Origin: Hyphomicrobiales bacterium
GTDB lineage: Bacteria; Pseudomonadota; Alphaproteobacteria; Rhizobiales; Rhizobiaceae
Direction: 5' to 3'
Assembly: GCA_900466575.1 (NCBI GenBank)
Contig: UBMP01000009.1
Coordinates: 248,001 to 312,000, forward strand
DNA length: 64,000 bases
Shown here: positions 32,623-40,731 of the stretch, in pieces
Layout of the letters: each line of letters starts with the position of its first letter
How positions within the stretch are numbered: position 1 is the stretch's first letter
Translations under genes and position numbers: made by a program
The notes under the pieces: generated by a model
Seen by the model: only the letters and a program-made list of their open reading frames with translations
Databases searched by the model: none
Told to the model about the DNA's origin: nothing

Positions 32623-32811
32623 GGCACCCGTTCTCCGCTGAATGCGCAATTTCGGTCAACAGAACCGCAATCCCCGGTAATACGACGGGGGCTGCCGGTG
32701 ACATTCTTCTCTGCGAGCCCGAAGCCGGCTTTCGCCTCTTCGTGGCCTCGAAACCACCGCCGCCGGCCGAATTTCGGCCGGACGAGACGGCAGGCAAGAA
32801 AGAGAGGAACT

Positions 32812-33870
32812 ATGGAATCCGCAATCGACACCCACCTCAAATGCCCCCGGAGCCTGACGCGGCGTATTGCCGACGACTATCAGCCGCCGTTTCCGATGTT
32901 CGTCGCGCGCGCCGGGCAGGACATGCGCCAGGTGGTCATGGGATATCTCGGTGTGCAGTACGTGGGAGAGGACAACAAGCCGAAGGCGCTCGCCGCGCTC
33001 CGCCGCATCGTTGCCGACTTCGCGCTGCCAGACGGTCCCGGCGAACATGACCTGACCCATCACACGGACGCGCAAGGCTACGACAATCTGATTGCCGTCG
33101 GCTACTGGCGCGATCAGGACACCTACACGCGCTGGCTCGCCACGCCGCAGGTCCAGGAATGGTGGCAGTCCGACGAGCGGCTTTCGGACGGGCTCGGCTA
33201 TTTCCGCGAAGTCGTCTGTCCCCGCGCCGACCAGTTCGAAACGCTCTATGCCTTCACCGAAAAGCTTCCCGGTGTCGGCGCCATCATGGATGGCATCAGC
33301 GGCGAGATTCAGGAGCACGGCTACTGGGGTTCGATGCGCGACCGTTTTCCCGCCTCGCAGACCGACCGCATGGCCGCCAGCGGCCAGCTCGAAATCGTGG
33401 AAGGCACGCCCGGCAAGACGGGCCGGGTCGTCGTCAAGGCGCATGACAATATCGCGCTCATCCGCTCCGGTCAGGACTGGGTCGATGCCGACACCCAGGA
33501 GCGCAAGCTCTATCTCGACGAAATCGAGCCGACGCTGCGGGACGGGATGACCTTCCTGCGCGACAACGGGCAGGCTGTCGGCTGTTACAGCAACCGCTAC
33601 GTCCGCTATATCGACGCCAACGGCAATTTCCTCGATAAAAGCTACAATATCGGCCATTGGCGCTCTCTCGACCTCCTCGAGCGATGGGCGGAATCCCACC
33701 CCACCCATCTGCGGATCTTCGTGACTTTCTTCCGCGTCGTCACCGGCCTTCAGAAACTGCGCCTCTATCATGAGGTCTCCGTCTTCGATGCGGGGAACCA
33801 GCTCTATGAATACATCAACTGCCATGCCCAGACGGGCATGATGCGCGACGCGGTGCCCTCCCAAGGCTGA
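32812..33870 (+). CDS. oxd: Aldoxime dehydratase (heme enzyme)
   Basis: The ATG at 32812 has AGAGAGGAA just upstream and gives 352 residues, the usual length. The enzyme dehydrates aliphatic or aryl-aliphatic aldoximes to nitriles with substrate bound directly to heme iron. Residues known from OxdRE are found at identical numbers: proximal heme ligand His299 (SHPTHLRIF), catalytic His320 (LRLYHEVSVF), Ser219, Arg178 and Glu143. It opens the nitrile pathway whose later steps (nitrile hydratase, amidase) follow on the same strand. A hairpin and a separate promoter region stand between them. Confidence 0.95.
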   Translation: MESAIDTHLKCPRSLTRRIADDYQPPFPMFVARAGQDMRQVVMGYLGVQYVGEDNKPKALAALRRIVADFALPDGPGEHDLTHHTDAQGYDNLIAVGYWRDQDTYTRWLATPQVQEWWQSDERLSDGLGYFREVVCPRADQFETLYAFTEKLPGVGAIMDGISGEIQEHGYWGSMRDRFPASQTDRMAASGQLEIVEGTPGKTGRVVVKAHDNIALIRSGQDWVDADTQERKLYLDEIEPTLRDGMTFLRDNGQAVGCYSNRYVRYIDANGNFLDKSYNIGHWRSLDLLERWAESHPTHLRIFVTFFRVVTGLQKLRLYHEVSVFDAGNQLYEYINCHAQTGMMRDAVPSQG

Positions 33871-34443: not shown

Positions 34444-35958
34444 ATGTCGATTACCCGTCCCACCGTTGCCGATGTCGCCAAGCTGGCAGCGGATCTGCAT
34501 ATGAACATGTCGCTCCAGGAGGCGTCGGAATATCACGCTCTGATGGGCGGTATTTTCGATGCCTACGACGTTGTCGATAACCACCCCAACCCGGTTCCGA
34601 CCGTGAAATACCCCCGCACGCCCGGTTACCGTCCCATGGGCGATGAAAACCGTTTCGGGGCCTGGGCGCAGAAAAGCACGGTCAAGGGCGCCGAAAGCGG
34701 AAAGCTCGCGGGAAAGACTGTCGTCCTGAAAGACAATGTCGCTCTGGCGGGCGTTCCGATGATGAACGGGGCGCAGACGCTGGAAGGTTTCATTCCGGGC
34801 GCTGACGCCACGGTCGTGACGCGCATTCTCGACGCCGGCGGCACGATCCTTGGCAAGGCGACCTGCGAACAGTTCTGCCTTTCCGGCGGCAGCCACACGT
34901 CCGATCCCGGCCCGGTGCACAATCCGAACCGCATGGGCTATGCGGCGGGCGGTTCGTCCTCCGGTTCGGCAGCGCTGGTCGCCGCCGGCGAGGCCGACAT
35001 GGCCATCGGCGGGGACCAAGGCGGTTCCATTCGCATCCCCTCCGCCTATTGCGGCGTCTACGGCATGAAGGCCACGCATGGCCTCGTCCCCTATACCGGC
35101 GTGATGCCGATCGAGGCGACGATCGACCATACCGGTCCGATCACCGCGACCGTTGCCGACAACGCACTGCTTCTGGAGGTTCTCGCAGGTGCCGATGGCC
35201 TCGACCCACGCCAGTATGCCCCGGTTGTGTCGAACTATACCGAGGCGCTCGGCAAGGGCGTGAAGGGCCTGAAGATCGGCATTCTGAAGGAGGGCTTCTC
35301 CTTTGAAAACATGCAGGACGGCGTTCAGCACAAGGTGCGTGCGGGCGCCGACCGGTTTGCGGCGATGGGGGCGGATGTTTCCGAAGTGTCCGTGCCCGAG
35401 TTCCTGACTGCGCTCTGCGCCTGGAACCCGATCACACTGGAAGGCTTCATGGCCCAGATGATGCACGGCAACGGCATGGGCTTCAACTGGAGGGGCCTCT
35501 ACGATGTGGCCCTGCTGGACGCCCATTCCGCATGGCGGCAGAAGGCGGATGACCTGTCGGTCACGCTGAAGCTCTGCATGCTGGTCGGACAATGGGGTCT
35601 CAGCCATTACCGTGGCCGCTACTATGCCAAGTCGCACAACATCGTGCTGAGCATCCGCAAGACGTTCGACGCACTCTTCGCCAAATACGACCTGCTGCTG
35701 ATGCCCACGGTTCCGTGTGTGGCCTCGCCGCTGCCTGGCAAGGACGCCTCCATTGCCGAAATCGTCGCGCGCGGGTTCGAGATGACCGCCACCACGGCGG
35801 CCTTCGACGTCACCGGTCATCCCGCCATGTCCATCCCCTGCGGCCTTTCCGACGGTCTACCCGTCGGCCTGATGCTGATCGGCAAGGACTATGCCGAGGC
35901 GACCATCTACCAGGCCGCCAGCGCCTTCGAGGCCGACGGCGACTGGCGCAAGTTCTGA
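34444..35958 (+). CDS. Amidase of the amidase-signature family (nitrile pathway)
   Basis: The ATG at 34444 follows AAAGGAAAATCC. A TTG six codons earlier is rejected. The 504-residue enzyme hydrolyses the amide made by nitrile hydratase to carboxylate and ammonia. The Ser-cisSer-Lys triad falls at Lys96 (VVLKDNV), Ser171 (AAGGSSSGS) and Ser195 ([10 protein letters not shown]), the same numbers as in the Rhodococcus N-771 nitrile-pathway amidase. An N-terminal helical extension (about 1-75) is also shared with that group. It lies 66 bases before the hydratase alpha gene. Confidence 0.94.
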
Positions 35959-36024
35959 CATTGCCAATGCCGTCGCCCGCGACGGCCTTCAGACAACTCC
36001 AAGCATGACATGAAAGGAGATACC

Positions 36025-36639
36025 ATGTCGCACGATCACGATCACACAGCACCCCCGGCCGATATCGAGCTGAGGGTCAAGGCACTGGAATCGCTTCTGA
36101 CCGAAAAGGGTCTGATCGATCCCTCCGCACTCGACGAGCTTGTCGATACCTATGAAAACCGCATCGGCCCGCGCAACGGCGCCCTCGTCGTCGCCAAGGC
36201 CTGGGCGGATCCCGAATACAAGAAACGCCTGCTGGAAGATGGCACGGCCGCGATTGCCGAACTCGGCTATTCCGGCGTTCAGGGCGAAGACATGGTCGTC
36301 GTCGAGAACACGCCGACCATTCACAACATGACCGTCTGCACACTGTGCTCCTGCTATCCGTGGCCGACGCTCGGCCTGCCGCCGGTCTGGTACAAGTCCG
36401 CACCCTACCGCTCCAAGGTCGTGATCGACCCCCGCGGTGTGCTTGCCGAATTCGGCGTCAGCGTGCCGGACAGCAAGGAGGTTCGGGTTTGGGACAGCAG
36501 CGCCGAGCTTCGCTATCTCGTTCTGCCCGAGCGCCCGGCGGGCACCGAAGGCTGGAGCGAAGAAAAGCTCGCCGATCTCGTCACCCGCGATTCGATGATC
36601 GGAACCGGCTTCCCGAAGAGCCCTTCCGAAATCCAGTAA
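36025..36639 (+). CDS. nthA: Nitrile hydratase alpha subunit, cobalt type
   Basis: AAGGAGATACC precedes the ATG at 36025, giving 204 residues. The metal-binding claw is VCTLCSC (Cys105, Cys108, Ser109, Cys110). Thr in the third position, rather than Ser, marks cobalt-type enzymes. Two of these cysteines are normally oxidised to sulfinic and sulfenic acids. The N-terminus MSHDHDH is His-rich. The enzyme hydrates nitriles to amides in the cytoplasm. Unusually, its beta partner is encoded by two downstream genes. Confidence 0.95.
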
Positions 36640-36673
36640 CCCAAAAAGGCAAGAACCGCAGAGGAGAACAGAT

Positions 36674-36982
36674 ATGAACGGAGTACACGATCTTGGTGGC
36701 ATGCACGGACTGGGTCCGATCGCGCCGCCCGCGCAGGAACCGGTTTTCGCCCATGAGTGGGAGCGGCGCGCTTTCGCGATGTTTGTGCCGCTTTTCGGCG
36801 CCGGCTGCTTCAATGTCGACGAGTTTCGTCACGCCATCGAACGCATGACGCCCACGCATTACCTCGAAGGCTCCTATTACGAGCACTGGCTGCATGCCTT
36901 CGAAACCCTCCTCGTCGAGAAGGGCTATATGGGGCCGAACGAGCTCGACGACTACATCGCCAAGTTCAAGGAGAAAATGTGA
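36674..36982 (+). CDS. nthB: Nitrile hydratase beta subunit, N-terminal half (separate polypeptide)
   Basis: This 102-residue protein equals the N-terminal half of a normal, roughly 220-residue nitrile hydratase beta subunit. It carries MNGVHDLGGMHG at the start, a WERRAFAMFVP segment and the conserved IERMTPTHYLEGSYYEHWL block. Arg57 there is the expected contact to the oxidised metal cysteines. It ends in KEKM followed by TGA, whose last base is the first of the next gene's ATG. The AAGGAG inside its last codons is the ribosome site for that gene. A split beta subunit is known in toyocamycin nitrile hydratase (ToyJKL) and thiocyanate hydrolase. Confidence 0.9.
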   Translation: MNGVHDLGGMHGLGPIAPPAQEPVFAHEWERRAFAMFVPLFGAGCFNVDEFRHAIERMTPTHYLEGSYYEHWLHAFETLLVEKGYMGPNELDDYIAKFKEKM

Positions 36983-37338
36983 TGCCTCTGGTTACGAAAG
37001 ATCTGGTCCCGGTCATCGTCAAGACCGGAGCATCCGCCCGCATCGCCGAGGACGTCGCACCGAGCTTCAATGTCGGCGACAAGGTGCGCGCGAAGAATAT
37101 CAACCCGCTGACGCATACGCGCCTCCCGCGCTATGTTCGCGGCAAGGTCGGAACGGTCGTTCTGGATCACGGCGTGTTCGTGACGCCGGACACGGTGGCC
37201 CACGGCCAGGGCGAACATCCGCAGCATGTCTATAACGTCGCCTTTGGCGGCGACGAGTTGTGGGGCGGCGGCGCTTCCTCCAAGGACAAGGTCTATATCG
37301 ACCTGTGGGACGACTATCTTGAAAAGGTCGAGGCATGA
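36982..37338 (+). CDS. Nitrile hydratase beta subunit, C-terminal half (separate polypeptide)
   Basis: An ATG at 36982 in a TGATG overlap, with AAGGAG 8 nt upstream, starts a 118-residue protein matching the C-terminal SH3-like barrel of NHase beta. Visible blocks are FNVGDKVRAKNINP and HTRLPRYVRGKVG, with the second conserved Arg pair at 50/53. VYNVAFGGDELWG and the final KVYIDLWDDYLE follow. Added to the preceding gene the length is 220 residues, a normal beta subunit, so nothing is missing at the junction. The enzyme should be an alpha-beta-gamma heterotrimer. Confidence 0.9.
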   Translation: MPLVTKDLVPVIVKTGASARIAEDVAPSFNVGDKVRAKNINPLTHTRLPRYVRGKVGTVVLDHGVFVTPDTVAHGQGEHPQHVYNVAFGGDELWGGGASSKDKVYIDLWDDYLEKVEA

Positions 37339-37838
37339 CCGAACTCCTCGCCCTTGAACCCCTGAACCTGCCCCGCGACGAAGGTGGGCCGGTCTTCGAG
37401 CGTCCCTGGCAGGCCCAGGCCTTCGCGCTTGTCGTCGAACTCTACAAGGCCGGCAAGTTTCGCTGGCCGGAATGGGTCGAGGTCTTCAGCCAGGAGATCA
37501 AGGCCTCCCCGGCGCTGCCGGGGGAGAGCGCCAACGACACCTATTACCGCCAATGGCTTACCGCACTCGAAACCATGGTCTCCAGTCGGAAGCTTGTCAT
37601 GGGCGCGGAAGTGTCCGACCGGCAGGAGGAATGGCGCCAAGCCTACCTCAACACGCCGCACGGACAGCCGATCCTGCTCGCCAACGCGCATTGCCGGCCG
37701 GCGAGCGGGCATAGTCATGACCATGATCACGACGATGACGATGATGATCACCATCATCACCACCACCATCATCATCATGGGCATCATCACAGCGTGTCGC
37801 GCCAGCCCGTCGCGGTCGCAGCCCCCTTGTCGAAGTAG
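37335..37838 (+). CDS. Nitrile hydratase accessory protein (P14K/NhlE-like) with long His/Asp tail
   Basis: The protein has 167 residues. Residues 1-115 are related to the N-terminal half of NHase beta (PVFERPWQAQAFALVVELYKAGKF, YYRQWLTALETMV), as in the activator/cobalt-exchange proteins that insert metal into alpha. The C-terminus is unusual: a run at about 124-151 has alternating HxH steps, six Asp, ten consecutive His and a further His triplet. This is a likely Co(II)-binding reservoir. Its ATG overlaps the stop of the preceding gene by 4 bases, and a CbiM-type cobalt permease follows. Confidence 0.9.
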   Translation: MTELLALEPLNLPRDEGGPVFERPWQAQAFALVVELYKAGKFRWPEWVEVFSQEIKASPALPGESANDTYYRQWLTALETMVSSRKLVMGAEVSDRQEEWRQAYLNTPHGQPILLANAHCRPASGHSHDHDHDDDDDDHHHHHHHHHHGHHHSVSRQPVAVAAPLSK

Positions 37839-37855: not shown

Positions 37856-38533
37856 ATGCATATCGAACCCGGCGTCGTCGATGGCGCCAAGATCGTTCTG
37901 AGCTACGCAACCGGCCTTGTCGCATTGGGCGGTGCCGTCAAGATGTCCTACGACACCATCCGCGCCAGCGGCATTCCGGCCTTCGCGGTCAGAAGCGTCA
38001 TCACCACATCGCTGGTGCTCTGCTTCTTCCAGGTGCTGCCGCATCAGGCGGTCGGCGTCTCGGAAGTGCACCTGATCCTCGGATCGACCTTGCTGCTGAT
38101 GTTCGGTGCAGGGCCGGCCGCCGTGGGTCTTGCCCTTGGCCTGCTGACGCAGGGCCTCTTCTTCGCGCCGTTCGACCTGCCGCAATACGGCATGAACGTC
38201 ACCACGCTGATCGTGCCGCTGTTTGCGATCAGCAAGCTGGCCGAGCGCGTCGTGCCGAAGGCAACGCCCTATGTCGATCTGCAATACAAGCAGGCACTGG
38301 CGCTTTCGACGGCGTTCCAGGCGGGGATTGTCGCCTGGGTGGCTTTCTGGGCGCTTTACGGCCAGGGCTTCACGGTGGCCAATCTCTCCAATGTCGCCAC
38401 CTTCGGCCTTGCCTATATGAGCGTCATCCTCATCGAGCCGCTGGTTGATCTCGCGGTTCTCGGTGCGGCCAAGTCGCTGCGCAAATATGCTGACGGTCCC
38501 GTCTTCGTCAGACGGCTCTATCGCGCCGCGTAA
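37856..38533 (+). CDS. CbiM-type cobalt/nickel ECF transporter substrate-binding permease
   Basis: The 225-residue membrane protein begins MHIEPGVVDG. The exposed Met-His-Ile N-terminus coordinates Co/Ni in CbiM and NikM. Several membrane spans follow, including LGSTLLLMFGAGPAAVGLALGLL. No CbiN, CbiQ or CbiO gene is adjacent, so it either recruits a distant ATPase module or works alone. Placement 18 bases after the His-tailed chaperone strongly implies cobalt supply to the nitrile hydratase, a job done by the unrelated NiCoT protein NhlF in Rhodococcus. Confidence 0.87.
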   Translation: MHIEPGVVDGAKIVLSYATGLVALGGAVKMSYDTIRASGIPAFAVRSVITTSLVLCFFQVLPHQAVGVSEVHLILGSTLLLMFGAGPAAVGLALGLLTQGLFFAPFDLPQYGMNVTTLIVPLFAISKLAERVVPKATPYVDLQYKQALALSTAFQAGIVAWVAFWALYGQGFTVANLSNVATFGLAYMSVILIEPLVDLAVLGAAKSLRKYADGPVFVRRLYRAA

Positions 38534-38706: not shown

Positions 38707-39147
38707 ATGAAATGGATTTTGGCTGTGACCGGCGATACCAGCATGCAAGACAAACTCGCTTACCTGATTGCGAGCATCAGTCGTCAACTCGAAGAAGAGT
38801 TGAGCGAAATTCTCAAGCCGCAAGGCATTGCGATCGAGCAGTTCCGGATTTTGACCGCGCTGTCCGACATGGACCGCAGGCCGATGCGTGATCTGGCGGG
38901 CGTGGTGCTCGTCGACCCGGCCTCCCTGACCAAAATCGTCGATCGCATGGTGGCTGAGGCGCTGGTCTTCCGCGCACCCGCACCCGATGATCGCCGCAAG
39001 GTGCTGATCTGCCTGGCCAGCAAGGGAAAGGCGCTTTACGAGCGGCTCAAGATCCTCCACGACGCCCAGCAGCGCAAGCTCGTCAATCGCCTGTCCGAGC
39101 GCAAGGCGGATCAGCTCGCCGACATCCTGCGCGGTCTGATGAACTAA
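38707..39147 (+). CDS. MarR-family transcriptional regulator
   Basis: The protein has 146 residues from the ATG at 38707. An ATG at 38743 would remove 12 residues and is an equally possible start. The winged HTH (MRDLAGVVLVDPASLTKIVDRMVAEALV) and wing (RAPAPDDRRKVLICLASKG) are clear. It follows the nitrile operon and is convergent with an AmiC-like sensor gene. As I recall, Rhodococcus J1 nitrile hydratase loci also pair an AmiC-like protein with a small repressor, so control of this operon is likely. Confidence 0.85.
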   Translation: MKWILAVTGDTSMQDKLAYLIASISRQLEEELSEILKPQGIAIEQFRILTALSDMDRRPMRDLAGVVLVDPASLTKIVDRMVAEALVFRAPAPDDRRKVLICLASKGKALYERLKILHDAQQRKLVNRLSERKADQLADILRGLMN

Positions 39148-39186: not shown

Positions 39187-40242
39187 CTATTTCGTTGCCA
39201 GAACCCGAAAATCATAGCCATCGACCGCCGCGATATGGACCGGATGGCGATTGCCCGTGGCCACGGCTGTTTCAAAGCCGCGCGCCGTCTTCTTCTGCGG
39301 CGACGCGCCCAATTGCCTGATGATGGCGCTGGAATGCAGGCTTTGCGCCGCATCCGCTAGCCCGCCCAAGCAATGAACGCCTTCATAAAGCGACTCGCCG
39401 AAGGCGTTGGGCGGGGGAGGGCAGAGGTCGAAATACTGATGGTATTTTTCGAGAAACGCGTCGTTGTTCCTGGAGCGTAGTCCCGCAAAATAGGCTGAAG
39501 AGACGAAAAGATTTTCCGTTGCATCCTCCCCGATCCCGTAAAGCACCGTTTCATCCACCGAGGTGCTGAAACGCAGAATGCGGGCTGCGAGACCGGATTC
39601 CGAAAAGGCCCGGTTGAAGACCACCGCCTCATGCCCCAGAAGCCACGACAGGACGGCATGGGGTCTAGCCTTGCGGATTTGCGACAGCAGGCGGTCGTGA
39701 TCCTCGAAATCGAACGGTATTTCGACGTCGCCAACGACCTGGCCGCCGCTATCGGCAATCAGTTGACGCGCCTCCGCCATCGACTTTTGCGGCCAGAGAT
39801 AATCGTTGCCCAGAAGAAAGAAGCGGGAGGCCCGCTTCTCATGAACCAGCCAGTCAATCCCTGGCTTCAGCAGCTCAGACGCCGTCTCTCCGATGGTAAT
39901 AATGCCGGGATGCCGCTCCGATCCCTCGAATTGCGGTGTATAGATGAAGGGGATGCCTGAAGGAATGGATTGCCGAACGGGCTGACGGGCGGAACTCGGC
40001 ACCATGGCCACGAGGGCTTCAACACCATCAAGCGCGACGGCACTGGACGCAGCTTCGGCCGCGGCCCTCACGGTCGATCCGGAATCGCGTAAGACGACTT
40101 CCAGCTCGCGCCCGAGAACGCCCCCCGTCGCGTTGATCTCTGCAGCAGCCAGCAGGGCACTTGCCTCACAGGAGGGCGCCCAGATACCGGCCGGCCCGCT
40201 TCTGGGTATCAAGACTCCGATCTTCAGGCGTTTGCTTGCCAT
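39187..40242 (-). CDS. AmiC-like cytoplasmic amide sensor (branched-chain/amide-binding fold)
   Basis: The ATG at 40240-40242 (MASKRLKIGVLIP) gives 351 residues without any signal peptide, beginning directly in the first Rossmann strand. The type-I binding-protein fold resembles Pseudomonas AmiC in phase and motifs: YTPQFEGSERHPGIITIG, FFLLGNDYLWPQKSMAEARQLI, and ARPHAVLSWLLGHEAVVFNRAF. AmiC senses short amides and restrains its partner regulator. Here no AmiR is present; the convergent MarR gene may be the DNA-binding arm. A stray cytoplasmic relative of urea/amide receptors is the alternative. Confidence 0.8.
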   Translation of the reverse strand: MASKRLKIGVLIPRSGPAGIWAPSCEASALLAAAEINATGGVLGRELEVVLRDSGSTVRAAAEAASSAVALDGVEALVAMVPSSARQPVRQSIPSGIPFIYTPQFEGSERHPGIITIGETASELLKPGIDWLVHEKRASRFFLLGNDYLWPQKSMAEARQLIADSGGQVVGDVEIPFDFEDHDRLLSQIRKARPHAVLSWLLGHEAVVFNRAFSESGLAARILRFSTSVDETVLYGIGEDATENLFVSSAYFAGLRSRNNDAFLEKYHQYFDLCPPPPNAFGESLYEGVHCLGGLADAAQSLHSSAIIRQLGASPQKKTARGFETAVATGNRHPVHIAAVDGYDFRVLATK

Positions 40243-40731
40243 GATCCCCAACACCGTCTCACGCGGAAACGATAGCAAACCTTGGACCCTTACGCATCCT
40301 TAAAAGTCTGCGTCTCGAGAATCTCGTCAGGTGCCGAACAGCAATCAGGAACATAAACGGCGCTCGCATCCGGTTTGATGAAACCTGAGGTGCCAAAGGC
40401 TTGATTGAGCGAGAATCGGGCCGCAGCCAGCATCGCACGATGCCTTCCGGTTCATGCAAAGCGCGATGATGCTCTGATTTCCGTCCGGAAGGGTCGGGGT
40501 CGCCGACTTCGCGCATATCCACATCGCCGTCGGCCTCATTTTCCCGCTCTGTCCTGCAAGTGAAGTTCTGCCGAACTCGTCCTCTCACATTGGAAAGCCC
40601 CGGGGAGGGGCATCCACTTCATCATTTCTCCGCTTCAGAGATCTGCGGGAGAGCCACAGCACCTGCCACAAAGTTGACTTTTTTTGTCTTATTTCTTGCA
40701 TCATTCCCTCCACCGGCGGTATGACGCTGAC
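40243..40731. other. Non-coding interval before the iron-uptake operon
   Basis: About 490 bases with no convincing gene. A minus-strand frame of about 100 codons lacks a ribosome site and family resemblance. At the right end TTGACT at 40674-40679 is a candidate -35 box for the efe operon, with only a poor -10 match. I cannot identify a Fur, RirA or Irr site with confidence. Confidence 0.4.

Follow-up and report, generated by a model that had tools for sequence, protein, structure and literature searches.

A cobalt-type nitrile hydratase (NHase) encoded by three genes, two of which share out the beta subunit between them, lies in a stretch of 64,000 nucleotides, hereafter the window, from a Hyphomicrobiales bacterium of the family Rhizobiaceae (contig UBMP01000009.1, positions 248,001 to 312,000). 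The locus is best read as a real and conserved three-gene Co-NHase within an aldoxime-nitrile-amide pathway, and the products of the three genes are predicted to form a complex.

Gene anatomy and family identity

The genes and sequence elements of the locus are given below in window positions.

32806..33870, + strand: oxd, aliphatic aldoxime dehydratase, a haem enzyme (NF050090 668.8 bits, cut-off 600; PF13816 E 6.7e-96)
34444..35958, + strand: amidase, amide to acid step (NF005565 811.6 bits, cut-off 545; PF01425 E 3.3e-86)
36025..36639, + strand: NHase alpha, cobalt type, with the CTLCSC claw (TIGR01323 319.8 bits; PF02979 E 5.8e-90; nearest solved chain 3QXE_A)
36674..36982, + strand: betaN, a separate gene for the N-terminal half of NHase beta, with claw Arg52 (PF21006; 3QXE_B 1–91)
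36968..36973, + strand: AAGGAG, Shine-Dalgarno site for betaC within the last betaN codons (sequence)
36980..36984, + strand: TGATG, stop-start overlap of betaN and betaC (sequence)
36982..37338, + strand: betaC, the C-terminal SH3-like half of NHase beta, with the second claw arginine, R47 (PF02211; 3QXE_B 104–218)
37335..37838, + strand: NHase accessory (activator) protein (TIGR03889 88.5 bits, cut-off 46)
37856..38533, + strand: CbiM-like cobalt uptake membrane protein (PF01891 E 1.5e-15)

The NHase genes follow the order alpha-betaN-betaC-activator, and gene position together with the profile search marks oxd as the upstream pathway partner of the enzyme. Alpha comprises 204 aa (22.42 kDa) and contains VCTLCSC, while betaN and betaC comprise 102 aa (11.74 kDa) and 118 aa (12.82 kDa), respectively. 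At the junction of the two beta genes, AAGGAG (36968–36973) is followed by AAAATGTG and the betaC start codon ATG (36982–36984), which begins 8 nt after the end of AAGGAG and has one base in common with the betaN stop TGA (36980–36982). Since betaC and the accessory gene overlap as well (ATGA, 37335–37338), three genes in a row overlap. The sequence agrees in all these points with the anatomy described by the first-pass annotation, that is, a cobalt-type alpha gene followed by genes of 102 and 118 codons which meet in TGATG, the second preceded by AAGGAG at 8 nt.

Further features of the neighborhood concern cobalt supply and regulation (L numbers denote the related loci compared; L112, L114, and L113 lie on plasmids of A. 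vitis, A. tumefaciens, and Rhizobium sp. NIBRBAC000502774, and L001 belongs to Rhizobium sp. CG5). The accessory protein (37335–37838) ends in a long His/Asp-rich stretch, possibly a cobalt store; among 15 accessory tails compared, the longest of these stretches belong to the window, L001, L112, and L114, and elsewhere they are shorter or there are few His residues. ORFs at 38707–39147 and 39187–40278 lie where the plasmid relatives carry a MarR regulator and a substrate-binding protein and are possible pathway sensors. A “transporter” gene is located between amidase and alpha in L112, L113, and L114 and is absent from the window (35959–36024), and CbtB/CbtA is found in L112 and L114 at the site occupied by a CbiM-like or cobalt transporter in the window (37856–38533) and in L113.

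Profile searches and alignments identify the encoded proteins as the parts of an NHase. Alpha passes the curated NHase model (TIGR01323, 319.8 bits against a cut-off of 249.85), betaN matches positions 1–99 of 115 of the Pfam domain NHase_beta_N (PF21006; E 7.9e-39), and betaC matches positions 3–98 of 98 of NHase_beta_C (PF02211; E 4.1e-35). On TIGR03888, a model of the single beta subunit with 226 positions, betaN takes up positions 1–96 and betaC positions 117–226, and each scores below the cut-off of 152.2 bits (133.6 and 138.4, respectively) while spanning about half of the model. For alpha, betaN, and betaC alike, the closest relative with a solved structure is the Co-NHase of Pseudomonas putida (3QXE), whose beta subunit is one chain of 219 residues, in contrast to the two genes of the window; betaN aligns to its residues 1–91 and betaC to 104–218, and beyond residue 104 the 3QXE beta sequence is in agreement with L034, a fused locus in the tree described below. 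With the halves covering one TIGR03888 model and one 3QXE beta chain, the earlier proposal that the two genes together equal one beta subunit is borne out. The division falls between the domains, as in three-subunit NHases, leaving the two beta domains and both claw arginines present on two chains. CTLCSC is found in all 65 split and all 135 fused loci with an alpha-first order.

A similar division is known from thiocyanate hydrolase (PDB 2DD4), an enzyme with a different substrate in which beta is divided at roughly the same point and its two chains resemble betaN and betaC. In sequence, the resemblance to the thiocyanate hydrolase chains is weak for betaN (E 0.0082) and clearer for betaC (E 3.2e-8), and both halves match by fold, the AlphaFold models reaching TM 0.71 (E 4.3e-3) for betaN and TM 0.67 (E 1.6e-7) for betaC against the separate chains. 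However, alpha obtains 192.6 bits under the thiocyanate hydrolase gamma model (TIGR03887), well short of the cut-off of 291.45, and passes the NHase model; moreover, the neighboring genes are oxd and an amidase, and the nearest solved relative is the P. putida Co-NHase. It is therefore very unlikely that the locus encodes a thiocyanate hydrolase or another member of the NHase family in place of a nitrile hydratase.

Conservation of the split and of the buried restart site

The 80 nearest alpha relatives (L001–L080) include 77 classifiable loci, of which 47 are split and 30 fused; left out were L025 and L073, where beta is cut by a contig end, and L052, which has a beta-like ORF with an accessory-like front. 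All 47 split relatives come from records other than that of the window, and the four nearest rows of the tree (L001, L112, L114, and L113) are split without exception, so that the question whether close relatives all carry a fused beta subunit is answered in the negative. Together with the three plasmid loci and the window itself they amount to 51 split loci, whose junctions read TGATG in 37 cases, TAATG in seven, and otherwise in seven. A Shine-Dalgarno core (GGAG, GAGG, or AGGA at 5–15 nt before the betaC start) is present in 44 of the 51, as opposed to 1 of 59 fused genes at the equivalent position and a background of 120 in 1530 same-phase windows inside betaN. The seven loci without a scored core are L024, L053, L055, L058, L114 (a close relative), L035, and L043, the last two having been scored from a later ATG while their true ATG has GGAG 8 nt upstream. 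The recurrence of the split in so many relatives, together with a ribosome site buried in the same manner, goes beyond chance.

Judging from codon comparisons, both betaN and betaC are under purifying selection. Between the window and six split relatives (L001, L112, L114, L113, L002, and L008), dN/dS ranges over 0.055–0.165 for betaN, 0.090–0.176 for betaC, and 0.033–0.158 for alpha, values which are rough in detail as they are Nei-Gojobori estimates at high synonymous divergence (pS 0.52–0.73); the comparison with the fused locus L003 is saturated and gives no betaN value. A conserved junction combined with low dN/dS is unlike what a dead gene would show. In one split locus, L060 (6901–7545), betaC carries a Lys/Ala/Arg-rich tail of roughly 95 residues.

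The gene tables of the three plasmid records contain nthA and the accessory protein with nothing between them, and one locus tag is skipped in each (H1Y61_RS22850/RS22840, NIBR502774_15090/15100, and G6L16_RS26175/RS26185). A betaC product is absent from all five plasmid records matched at 74 percent identity or more, and four less similar records (H26, H27, H28, and H37), which need not be split, also list nothing under the match. Since the PLSDB table omits pseudogenes and exactly one tag is skipped, betaN and betaC have likely been called one frameshifted pseudogene. The PLSDB tables are also incomplete; a missing product is a weak sign when taken alone, the single skipped locus tag being the better one. 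Two SH3-like domain proteins are annotated for the same gene order in Aminobacter MSH1 and the cyanobacterium Gloeocapsopsis dulcis, and in Aminobacter MSH1 one tag number is missing, the pair bearing later numbers instead.

The skipped tag and absent product in the three plasmid relatives are what would be expected if an ordinary fused beta gene had been broken by a sequencing or assembly indel or had recently become a frameshift pseudogene, and two loci of the class-level survey below (L131 and L167) do look frame-broken. This explanation is hardly credible, however, given that the same break stands in 47 of 77 near relatives and in all four nearest tree rows, that the Shine-Dalgarno core marks split genes and not fused ones (44/51 vs. 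1/59), and that dN/dS is low on both halves; the view of the first-pass annotation, which took the third gene as a genuine extra subunit gene and not as a sequencing indel, thus holds. Programmed ribosomal frameshifting, which would join betaN and betaC into a fusion, either alone or alongside the separate products, is likewise improbable. BetaC keeps one relative frame in 50 of the 51 split loci, but descent alone would also predict a constant frame, and L060 uses the other one. Furthermore, the spacing at the junction varies from a 1-base overlap through gaps of 1 or 2 bases to an overlap of 13 bases (L035 and L043), the Shine-Dalgarno core is placed at initiation distance, and no slippery heptamer is seen by eye at 36960–36984.

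Distribution, genomic context, and history of the split

A class-level survey based on an even draw of 385 genomes, 141 of them with an alpha match, yielded 129 loci in addition to that of the window, taken from the best-scoring places listed; a second place in genome G601 and the end of the list lie outside this set. The 128 classified loci comprise 76 alpha-first and six beta-first fused loci, 14 split loci of the order alpha-betaN-betaC (12 clean ones without L131 and L167), and 32 split loci of the order betaN-betaC-alpha. Split beta subunits are therefore not rare, and with 47 of 77 near relatives in addition to these two class-level groups, the data do not support the view that the arrangement as such is uncommon. 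Within aldoxime-nitrile operons, where the first-pass annotation called it uncommon, split loci are the minority beside oxd: among L001–L080, oxd lies in the fetched flank (up to 6 kb, shorter at contig ends) of 5/47 split loci compared with 17/30 fused loci.

The 32 betaN-betaC-alpha loci (within L218–L252) lie on one side of a tree branch with support 100, and all 32 contain CTLCSC. Their gene order is that of the Streptomyces canus NHase, and an accessory-type ORF was not found in their flanks of approximately 2 kb. Other variants were observed in single loci. L131 apparently has two tandem betaN-type ORFs and a broken betaC, and in L167 betaC extends over two frames. In L176, L182, L190, L197, and L198, the split beta is followed by an ORF that joins an accessory-like front to a second betaC-like domain, and the beta of L052 is an ORF similar to this one.

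The window is probably located on a repABC replicon, as a RepA partition protein above the family cut-off, which none of 14 control genomes reached, is encoded on the same contig (C17:94286-95476). Searches with betaC gave no match in the five same-genus genomes listed and a betaC-like match in 178 of 394 family genomes (own genome included). Because the family matches listed, apart from the window's own, show at most 58 percent identity and the 29 family loci compared besides that of the window are all fused, the NHase of the window is not the usual one of its family. It is likely an accessory acquisition, and the nearest named relatives for the gene are Rhizobiaceae.

The tree of 110 rows calls for two split/fused changes, and a fused clade of 24 rows, which includes the P. 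putida-type gene, is drawn within a split clade, other fused genes lying outside it. The suggestion of the first-pass annotation that the split may mark a distinct NHase lineage is supported insofar as the window locus is a member of a distinguishable NHase group. An AU test did not reject the placement of all split rows in one clade (log-likelihood difference 4.50, p 0.396), the tested group having been chosen with the tree already in view. The linkers of the fused genes (EL..G, then often a Pro-rich stretch) look alike by eye inside and outside the nested clade, which favors a single split. No fossil start or Shine-Dalgarno site was seen by eye in the fused genes, with the core present in 1/59 at the matching site as noted above. 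Trees that contain both split architectures show six split/fused changes with 157 rows and five with 148 rows, the latter without L167, L131, L204, L214, L223, L224, L213, L211, and L210. These trees, which include 30 class-level fused alpha-first rows, 10 of the 29 family fused rows, and 14 of the 24 nested fused rows but leave out six near-duplicate split rows, have several long branches and unsure deep forks. Here, too, one clade of all 89 split rows was not rejected (difference 8.21, p 0.435).

As neither AU test rejects a single split clade, the trees allow more than one number and direction of changes. Separate origins of the alpha-first and the betaN-betaC-alpha split were accordingly dropped as a claim (p 0.435), as was re-fusion in any firm form (p 0.396, with the linkers alike). 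A weaker version, in which the split beta is the older state in this proteobacterial Co-NHase group and the P. putida-type fused beta arose later through re-fusion at the linker, fits the tree as drawn with its two changes, but neither the AU test nor the look of the linkers favors it, and we regard it as doubtful. If it were true, the split and fused forms would constitute a natural series for testing what is gained by subunit fusion, and the free betaN may have gained a chaperone role.

Predicted assembly and relation to known three-subunit enzymes

Domain content and conservation make it highly probable that the locus encodes a functional three-subunit Co-NHase with a beta subunit derived from two genes, betaC being made by coupled initiation. 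In the proposed mechanism, betaN would provide the helical domain and betaC the SH3-like domain of one beta subunit, and ribosomes would initiate betaC by coupling at the TGATG overlap through its own buried Shine-Dalgarno site. We infer that the three polypeptides join in one complex. The most likely assembly predicted for betaN, betaC, and alpha is (alpha-betaN-betaC)2, built overall like an (alpha-beta)2 NHase, since the break lies in the linker that connects the domains of beta. The accessory protein would load the cobalt, supplied by the CbiM-like importer, and the enzyme would act between the aldoxime dehydratase, which is expected to make the nitriles, and the amidase, which would finish the pathway after NHase has hydrated them.

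Structure models agree with this division of labor. AlphaFold predictions based on 46-row alignments have a mean pLDDT of 80.0 for betaN (residues 1–5 and 7–9 under 50) and 83.9 for betaC, each model matches its own half of NHase beta in structure comparison, and the betaN tail, at the position of the fused genes' linker, is predicted as a helix (90–101). In the alignment of 49 split homologues (the 51 split loci minus L022 and L060), R52 of betaN and R47 of betaC are both invariant (49/49 each). By alignment offset they fall on Arg52 and Arg157 of P. thermophila beta, the positions which according to the entry titles are mutated in PDB 9D65/9D6J and 9D6K/9D6M, respectively. In a fused enzyme, such arginines are described as stabilizing the claw (PMC12646544). 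BetaN Arg52 and betaC Arg47 would together hold the Co(III) cysteine claw on alpha, giving a full active site built from three chains; with the two arginines on different chains, a complete site should need all three proteins. This need is not certain, since alpha of the toyocamycin NHase is reported to be active alone and self-maturing (cited in PMC7329996). Counting in favor of a need for betaC, S. canus AnhD and AnhA are reported not to transform acetamiprid without AnhE, the betaC homologue (PMC7329996).

The S. canus enzyme also raises the possibility that betaN additionally serves as a cobalt or subunit-swapping chaperone and that the split has a role in maturation, which would be compatible with the three-subunit reading. 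There, AnhD, a betaN homologue, is reported to form AnhD2A and to activate the apo-enzyme (PMC7329996), and betaN of the window scores just above the cut-off of the accessory model TIGR03889 (47.9 vs. 46). Yet this score may only mirror the relatedness, already known, between accessory proteins and the N-domains of beta, and the window locus keeps a dedicated accessory gene which S. canus does not have, making such an extra role of betaN unlikely on present indications.

Among known systems, the toyocamycin NHase (TNH) of Streptomyces rimosus is reported as an (alpha-beta-gamma)2 assembly whose subunits measure 21.2, 10, and 11.4 kDa (PMC8574189), and thus has three subunits like the window locus, to which it is likened by description. 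Together with the two thiocyanate hydrolase chains of 2DD4, these three subunits are in line with the earlier statement that split beta subunits are established for both enzymes. In the S. canus NHase (ScNHase), the homologues of the N- and C-terminal beta halves are AnhD and AnhE, respectively, but the order is betaN-betaC-alpha and the genome reportedly has no activator gene (PMC7329996). The window locus falls outside this narrow kind in its gene order and in having an activator (TIGR03889 88.5 bits). PnhF of Microvirga flocculans is a plasmid-encoded three-subunit NHase in which alpha reportedly lies between the two beta genes (PMC11573777), whereas both beta genes follow alpha in the window; this likeness, too, is one of description and not of sequence. 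A 2020 review distinguishes six NHase gene organizations and assigns three subunit genes plus activator to thiocyanate hydrolase (PMC7193024), and in a review of plant-associated bacteria the aldoxime-nitrile clusters are described as having two NHase subunits (PMC8955678). Searches of open-licence literature brought up no NHase with the arrangement alpha-betaN-betaC-activator, and passages of six further papers gave nothing informative on a split beta (PMC9297474, PMC7321127, PMC10098168, PMC11568032, PMC8278588, PMC3323583).

The interest of the finding lies in a three-gene Co-NHase that is widespread and apparently hidden by annotation. NHases are industrial catalysts. A pseudogene call on their beta genes would hide working enzymes from gene mining. 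Three-subunit NHases have so far been reported one by one, and the split form is seen here to be widespread among proteobacterial relatives, where closely related fused and split genes provide a natural test of the effects of subunit fission on assembly, cobalt loading, and stability.
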